This document shows positions 41,876 to 42,068 of a DNA stretch of 64,000 bases, one piece after another. The stretch is from Corallium rubrum (Eukaryota; Cnidaria; Anthozoa; Scleralcyonacea; Coralliidae), in the NCBI GenBank assembly GCA_964035015.1, contig OZ035997.1, positions 28,845,067 to 28,909,066 of the forward strand, written 5' to 3'. The position numbers and the translations under genes were made by a program. Below the pieces are notes generated by a model. It was not told the DNA's origin and searched no databases. It was given only the letters and a program-made list of their open reading frames with translations. The stretch's first letter is position 1. Every line of letters starts with the position of its first letter.

Positions 41876-42068
41876 ATGTCGTCTAAAAAAGAAAATGAGT
41901 GGGTTGAATGTAGCAAGTGTCGAAGGTCTTTCCCAAAGAAATATGTTTTGGGACACGTTGACACGTGCAAGAATGAGGAGACTCATTATGACTCAAAAAC
42001 GTCTCTCAACTCTGGATTTATCAACAAAGGTGTTCTGTTTGCCAAAGCAATTAACAATGCATCAACAA
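41876..42068 (+). CDS. AFG2A: AFG2A exon 1: C2HC zinc finger (residues 1-65)
   Basis: Starts MSSKKENEW. Cys12, Cys15, His27 and Cys31 have C-x2-C-x11-H-x3-C spacing, that of RAD18-type UBZ4 ubiquitin-binding fingers. The donor ACAA|GTATGT leaves phase 1, which matches the acceptor of exon 2 across a 7.7-kb intron full of transposons. The MSSKK opening resembles vertebrate AFG2A. Confidence 0.8.

Follow-up and report, generated by a model that had tools for sequence, protein, structure and literature searches.

A putative C2HC zinc finger encoded by the probable first exon of an AFG2A gene in Corallium rubrum

In Corallium rubrum, AFG2A probably carries at its N-terminus a small zinc finger that is absent from the human enzyme. 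The exon that encodes it lies in a 64,000-nucleotide stretch of contig OZ035997.1 (hereafter the window; positions are numbered from its first letter), and we consider it likely that this is the genuine first exon of AFG2A, adding a C2HC finger that would act as a tethered recruiting hook at the mouth of the enzyme's funnel. No zinc finger in AFG2A has been reported in the open-licence literature searched, and the finger may be common in invertebrates and merely unremarked. It bears on the question of how AFG2A (SPATA5) chooses its clients; defects in AFG2A are reported to give rise to a human encephalopathy. A recruiting finger that is absent in human would be a module that the AFG2A complex once had or has gained, and would offer a direct handle on what that complex recruits.

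Gene model and genomic setting

By its sequence the gene is AFG2A, a member of the AFG2/SPATA5 clade, and the identity proposed in the first-pass annotation is borne out by several features of the complete model. This model comprises 14 exons encoding 917 residues in one continuous frame that ends in ...CGLHSL (Table 1). The gene extends past the window, its last exon starting 13.9 kb beyond the window end, and 19.7 kb of downstream sequence was added to complete the model. All 13 introns are GT-AG, which holds by construction because exon bounds were chosen at GT-AG sites; the real test of the model is the unbroken frame across the 14 exons. Its two AAA stretches score 307.6 bits with PF00004 against a cut-off of 21.2. 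When exons 1-7 were compared with the PDB, the best match was human AFG2A (9lgo_A, E = 6.8e-19, residues 73-399 on 64-383), and yeast AFG2 (1.3e-5), CDC48 and proteasome ATPases ranked behind it. Exon 2, where the conserved N-domain starts, aligned globally with human AFG2A residues 50-95 at p = 2e-4 against shuffles. The Walker A motif of the second ATPase domain reads GPPGCSKT, which we take to be a mark of the AFG2/SPATA5 family. Intron 13 (59667 onward) is 18.2 kb long and lies between the Walker A and Walker B motifs of that domain. As queries against sequence collections, the first ATPase domain found 22 loci in the viral collection IMG/VR, and the second gave 255 confirmed stretches in GTDB, the best 80 of which represent 79 loci, all with archaeal titles; neither search yielded a eukaryotic AFG2A.

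Table 1. Coordinates of the AFG2A gene model, its predicted finger and neighbouring or related features
Feature	Position	Strand	Basis or remark
SMARCA5/SNF2H-type ISWI gene, 5' coding exon	41537..41593	-	ATG, GTAAAT donor, order; no homology support of its own
SMARCA5-AFG2A intergenic gap	41594..41875	.	282-283 bp, start codon to start codon, head-to-head
AFG2A exon 1	41876..42068	+	ATG, residues 1-64, end phase 1; in-frame stops upstream, GTATGT donor
Predicted C2HC finger, Cys12-Cys31	41909..41968	+	C-x2-C-x11-H-x3-C; translation, pattern count, single-sequence AlphaFold2
AFG2A intron 1	42069..49802	+	7.7 kb, mobile-element remains
AFG2A exon 2	49803..49918	+	Conserved N-domain start; no in-frame ATG within it or in its ORF upstream
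AFG2A exon 3	50057..50099	+	Splice sites, gene model
AFG2A exon 4	50712..50749	+	Splice sites, gene model
AFG2A exon 5	51091..51170	+	Splice sites, gene model
AFG2A exon 6	51252..51310	+	Splice sites, gene model
AFG2A exon 7	51931..52596	+	Remaining N-domain, linker, start of ATPase 1
AFG2A exon 8	53672..53801	+	ATPase 1 Walker A
AFG2A exon 9	53953..54133	+	ATPase 1 Walker B
AFG2A exon 10	55303..55493	+	Gene model
AFG2A exon 11	56872..57112	+	Gene model
AFG2A exon 12	57217..57300	+	Gene model
AFG2A exon 13	59487..59666	+	ATPase 2 Walker A, GPPGCSKT
AFG2A exon 14 (last)	77866-78417 (window-based numbering, outside the window)	+	Gene model
UBZ4-like finger family, L004-L008, L011, L012	Contigs C23, C49, C8, C15, C82, C116, C66

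Upstream, on the opposite strand, lies a SMARCA5/SNF2H-type gene with exons seen from about 14.6 kb up to 41593 and a short, acidic first exon; its downstream exons match human SMARCA5 (8v4y_W). The gap between the two start codons has a CpG observed/expected ratio of 1.48, within the top 6% of 1275 window segments. It looks as though SMARCA5 and AFG2A share a promoter in this gap, since the starts are head-to-head and the CpG ratio is high.

Intron 1 of AFG2A holds a LINE-like piece at about 43.0-43.6 kb, named by eye, and a tandem array of 65 copies of the 10-bp unit AGATCATACA at 43879-44539, whose repetition probably accounts for the long + strand open frames found there. Retroelement remains of DIRS-like make-up occupy 46008-47902 on the - strand; their open reading frames include an RVT_1 match over the cut-off and a tyrosine-recombinase-like match under it.

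Assignment of exon 1 to AFG2A

The 193 bases of exon 1 encode 64 residues plus one base and are closely preceded by in-frame stops (TGA at 41855 and TAA at 41858). Scored with a generic donor matrix of our own, its donor, CAA/GTATGT, ranks in the top 2.7% of the 3752 GT sites in the window. The acceptor preceding 49803 is TTATTTAG, and the junction from exon 1 into exon 2 keeps the frame that matches human AFG2A, although a phase match alone has a 1 in 3 chance of arising. The open reading frame of exon 2 is free of methionine between the stop that precedes it and the conserved residues; given an ATG start, an exon further upstream is therefore required. Exon 1 and human AFG2A (9lgo_A) both start with MSSKK. 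From composition alone an SSKK match would arise with a probability of about 3e-5, although the bias of start peptides makes the real chance higher than this figure.

Candidate initiating exons were enumerated as in-phase ATG-to-donor stretches between 41600 and 49790. Among the 32 found, exon 1 ranks second for donor score, third for length and 14th when donor and codon scores are combined, and the proposition that it outranks every other candidate initiating exon fails on all three counts. The single candidate with a better donor (47674-47734) has 20 codons and lies opposite a reverse-transcriptase open reading frame, and the two longer ones both start from 42999. Half of the candidates (16 of 32) begin at 43000-43660, inside the LINE-like sequence.

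Exon 1 might instead be a separate small gene, or AFG2A might start elsewhere. Read unspliced, the exon 1 frame stays open beyond the donor until it meets a stop at 42098-42100, for a protein of 74 residues, and a polyadenylation-like hexamer, A[A/T]TAAA, is present at 42518; the better donor and the two longer stretches in the intron point the same way. Against this stand the start peptide common to exon 1 and human AFG2A, the good donor, the start of 16 of the 32 candidates inside LINE-like sequence (43.0-43.66 kb), the lack of an ATG with which exon 2 could begin the protein, and the placement of exon 1 at the divergent start shared with SMARCA5. We consider the separate-gene or alternative-start explanation quite improbable.

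Taken together, these observations argue that exon 1 very probably belongs to AFG2A and would be joined to exon 2 in the mRNA. The claim that it is the first exon of the gene, made in the first-pass annotation, thus probably stands on MSSKK, the ATG-less exon 2 and the head-to-head arrangement with SMARCA5. It draws nothing from the remainder of the exon, where a comparison with the human AFG2A N-terminus past MSSKK detected no similarity (local p = 0.94), nor from codon usage, as 17% of 6588 open 64-codon stretches equal the exon 1 score.

A predicted C2HC finger and its possible ligands

In the translation of exon 1, the candidate ligands C12, C15, H27 and C31 are spaced C-x2-C-x11-H-x3-C, exactly as first described. 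Translation of the window in six frames gives a single instance of the exact pattern, where 100 simulated sequences of matching dinucleotide composition average 0.10; a looser finger pattern is seen three times, the simulated mean being 0.56. With 0.10 occurrences expected per window by chance, the motif alone is only mildly improbable, and it gains its credibility from standing at the beginning of AFG2A. AlphaFold2, run on the single sequence, built a strand at residues 9-11, a second strand at 18-20 and a helix at 21-31, with a mean pLDDT of 78 over residues 11-20 and 73 over residues 21-30; for the exon 1 model overall, from one input sequence, the mean pLDDT was 57.8 and pTM 0.31. This predicted succession of two strands and a helix corresponds to the beta-beta-alpha arrangement that small C2HC fingers have, and the finger would coordinate zinc through its putative ligands.

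The pattern could also have arisen by chance in an N-terminal tail that is disordered and binds no zinc. Both the random expectation and the human tail, which has no such pattern at the same place, are compatible with this, but the residues between the ligands likewise resemble those of small C2HC fingers, and the beta-beta-alpha order emerged from one sequence. A chance pattern thus appears to be a slim prospect, and we proceed with the predicted C2HC finger.

Which kind of C2HC finger this might be was addressed by residue comparisons and profile searches. The spacing is not diagnostic of UBZ4, the RAD18-type ubiquitin-binding finger, because it is common to ZC2HC1-type and Sgf11-type fingers: it is found in 17 of 17 distinct zf-C2HC_2 fingers (three loci, looser pattern search) and in the genome's Sgf11-type finger. 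Exon 1 has D29 at the key Asp position of UBZ4, two residues before the last Cys (D37 of WRNIP1), and Leu25 where the UBZ4 Asn, two before the His (N33 of WRNIP1), would be expected. Ubiquitin binding by WRNIP1 is disrupted when N33 or D37 is mutated (Suzuki et al., cited in PMC7351111). The UBZ4 Pro-Val is missing from exon 1 (CSKC), as is the Leu after the last Cys (CK), whereas both are kept in RAD18, WRNIP1 and SPRTN and, along with the Asp and the Asn, in the RAD18-like finger of this genome. Lys/Arg outnumber Asp/Glu by 5 to 1 in the exon 1 finger; the corresponding counts are 1 and 2 in RAD18, 1 and 1 in WRNIP1, and 1 and 5 in a HECT-family finger.

A UBZ score was computed by comparing the inter-ligand residues with those of RAD18, WRNIP1 and SPRTN, the SPRTN sequence being written from recall. 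Beyond the ligands, the likeness of exon 1 to these three exceeds that of its own shuffles (p = 0.0014). Its score is 6.7, against 35-42 for true UBZ4 fingers (leave-one-out) and 39.0 for the RAD18-like finger of the genome; the HECT-family finger scores 22.0, the Sgf11-type finger 8.3, and the fingers L009 and L114 9.3 and 20.0. Subtracting the C2HC score gives +10.2 for exon 1 and -36.4 to +1.3 for 14 non-redundant zf-C2HC_2-type fingers, to which the mean score of exon 1 is -3.5.

Among Pfam models, zf_UBZ and zf-WRNIP1_ubi were unmatched by exon 1 at E <= 10. The control peptides of RAD18, WRNIP1 and SPRTN each matched both models, and only that of WRNIP1 passed a cut-off. The Pfam matches that exon 1 did produce (TRAF6_Z2, zf-C2HC_2, PANTS-like and Zn_ribbon_5) were all below their cut-offs. 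The bit score with zf-C2HC_2 was 17.3 for P0001, 18.8 for residues 1-40 and 18.2 in the genome search, under the cut-off of 27. In the PDB, the best match of exon 1 was the RAD18 UBZ (E = 0.16), followed by CTCF (0.33).

The genome (474 Mb, 312 contigs) was searched as well. With 10 candidates scored, the self-match of exon 1 was the sole match at E <= 0.001. The genome profile lists, which score first-look candidates only, lack exon 1 at E <= 10 for zf_UBZ (53 matches), zf-WRNIP1_ubi (5), the human RAD18 UBZ (27) and Sgf11 (PF08209, 24); the list for zf-C2HC_2 (PF13913; 137 matches, 12 over the cut-off) includes it at E = 1.77. Within the genome, exon 1 comes closest to a multi-copy HECT-type family, whose fingers match it at E = 0.011 and share V-E-C, F-P and H-V-D-x-C with it. 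The UBZ4-like finger of this family, VECPSCFKQFPEDEIEFHVDLCL or near it, is listed at seven places (Table 1), and in the one copy scanned, L004, a HECT domain follows the finger. In IMG/VR, 15 pattern matches were found and none was confirmed as a relative of exon 1.

The finger thus agrees with UBZ4 at one key residue, D29, and departs from it at the others: the Asn, Pro-Val and Leu are missing, and the loop carries an excess of basic residues. A UBZ4 label is therefore unwarranted. In favour of the UBZ4-like description in the first-pass annotation stand D29 and the RAD18 UBZ as best PDB match. The key-residue set and the UBZ models did not go its way, and the profile search left the UBZ models unmatched and zf-C2HC_2 under its cut-off.

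In the reading we prefer, a single zinc-coordinating beta-beta-alpha C2HC finger would precede the conserved N-domain of AFG2A. The N-domains of human AFG2A, together with C1orf109-CINP, form a funnel over the ATPase motor, as described in PMC11055677. The finger (residues 10-32) would be followed by some 40 weakly structured residues and then by the N-domain, from about residue 73; tethered ahead of the N-domain in this way, it would hang at the funnel mouth. From that presumed position it could serve as a hook and keep a ligand in the vicinity of the pore, whereupon AFG2A would engage and unfold the protein attached to the held ligand. In our estimate no single ligand reaches an even chance: nucleic acid, a nucleosome or a pre-ribosome comes first, ubiquitin next and a protein partner after it, the remainder falling to no ligand at all.

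According to the first of these possibilities, which we hold as a tentative one, the basic loop binds nucleic acid, a nucleosome or a pre-ribosome and thereby sends AFG2A to replication forks or pre-60S particles. The excess of Lys/Arg, unlike the charges in RAD18, WRNIP1 and the HECT-family finger, would suit such a role, as would the spacing shared with Sgf11- and ZC2HC1-type fingers, but charge by itself is weak evidence, exon 1 is unlisted among the Sgf11 matches, and the resemblance to zf-C2HC_2 fingers (E = 1.77, under the cut-off; mean score -3.5) is poor. Replication-fork DNA stimulates the 55LCC ATPase and RNA lowers it (PMC11055677), and yeast Drg1/AFG2 works on pre-60S particles (PMC12332008).

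The finger may alternatively, though doubtfully, be a working UBZ4 ubiquitin reader in which D29 contacts ubiquitin as D37 of WRNIP1 does, selecting ubiquitylated substrates. An Asp two residues before the last Cys is present in none of the 14 zf-C2HC_2-type fingers of the genome, and the likeness to RAD18, WRNIP1 and SPRTN, the difference score of +10.2, the PDB match to the RAD18 UBZ and the proximity to the HECT-family fingers are all in keeping with a reader. The combination of an AAA+ ATPase and an N-terminal UBZ has a precedent in WRNIP1 (PMC7351111). On the other side, the UBZ score of exon 1 falls far from true UBZ4 fingers and even below that of the Sgf11-type finger, the Asn required in WRNIP1 is replaced by Leu25, and exon 1 is unlisted in the zf_UBZ, zf-WRNIP1_ubi and RAD18-UBZ genome searches. 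PMC11055677 moreover indicates that human 55LCC substrates are likely recognised independently of ubiquitin. The initial argument, that a built-in ubiquitin reader would fit the action of 55LCC on replisome proteins, is weakened because of this likely ubiquitin-independent recognition.

A bolder scenario, which we regard as unlikely, is that AFG2A of this lineage reads ubiquitin through a finger of its own, linking a 55LCC-type unfoldase to ubiquitylated clients, and that the human line lost the finger and kept MSSKK. If the finger does read ubiquitin, the published contrast between p97, which depends on ubiquitin, and 55LCC, which does not, would reflect a difference between lineages and would be no rule.

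Comparison with known systems

The closest comparison is with human AFG2A (SPATA5; 9lgo_A, 8rhn_K), which is like the present model in its two AAA domains, its MSSKK start, and an N-domain and first AAA domain that align. Its C-terminus is presumably similar as well. Human residues 1-63 differ from exon 1 in containing one Cys (Cys27) and no His, so the human enzyme is without a finger there; the view that vertebrate AFG2A has none accordingly holds for this stretch of the human protein, the sole animal AFG2A compared. Yeast AFG2/Drg1 (7nku, 7wd3) belongs to the same AAA family, and its alignment with the model begins just before the first AAA domain. We know of no finger in its N-terminus.

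Small fingers elsewhere offer further parallels. Those of the zf-C2HC_2 type (PF13913, ZC2HC1-type) have equal spacing, and some carry R-S-F or R-K-F after the second Cys. RAD18 UBZ4, both the human finger and the RAD18-like copy in this genome, resembles exon 1 in spacing and in having a Val two residues ahead of the first Cys and an Asp likewise two ahead of the last; the human RAD18 and exon 1 fingers are identical at 3 of 21 non-ligand residues. The genome's copy, VDCPVCCEKIAQSKINFHLDTCLTS (C22:1242200, L134), is named RAD18 on the strength of one 44-residue exon with 53% identity. WRNIP1 is of a different AAA clade from AFG2A, and its finger has CPVC, Asn and CL, which the exon 1 finger does not. 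It is nonetheless, like the protein modelled here, an AAA+ enzyme that carries a C2HC finger of equal spacing at its N-terminus, and both fingers have Asp at the position where that of WRNIP1 contacts ubiquitin.
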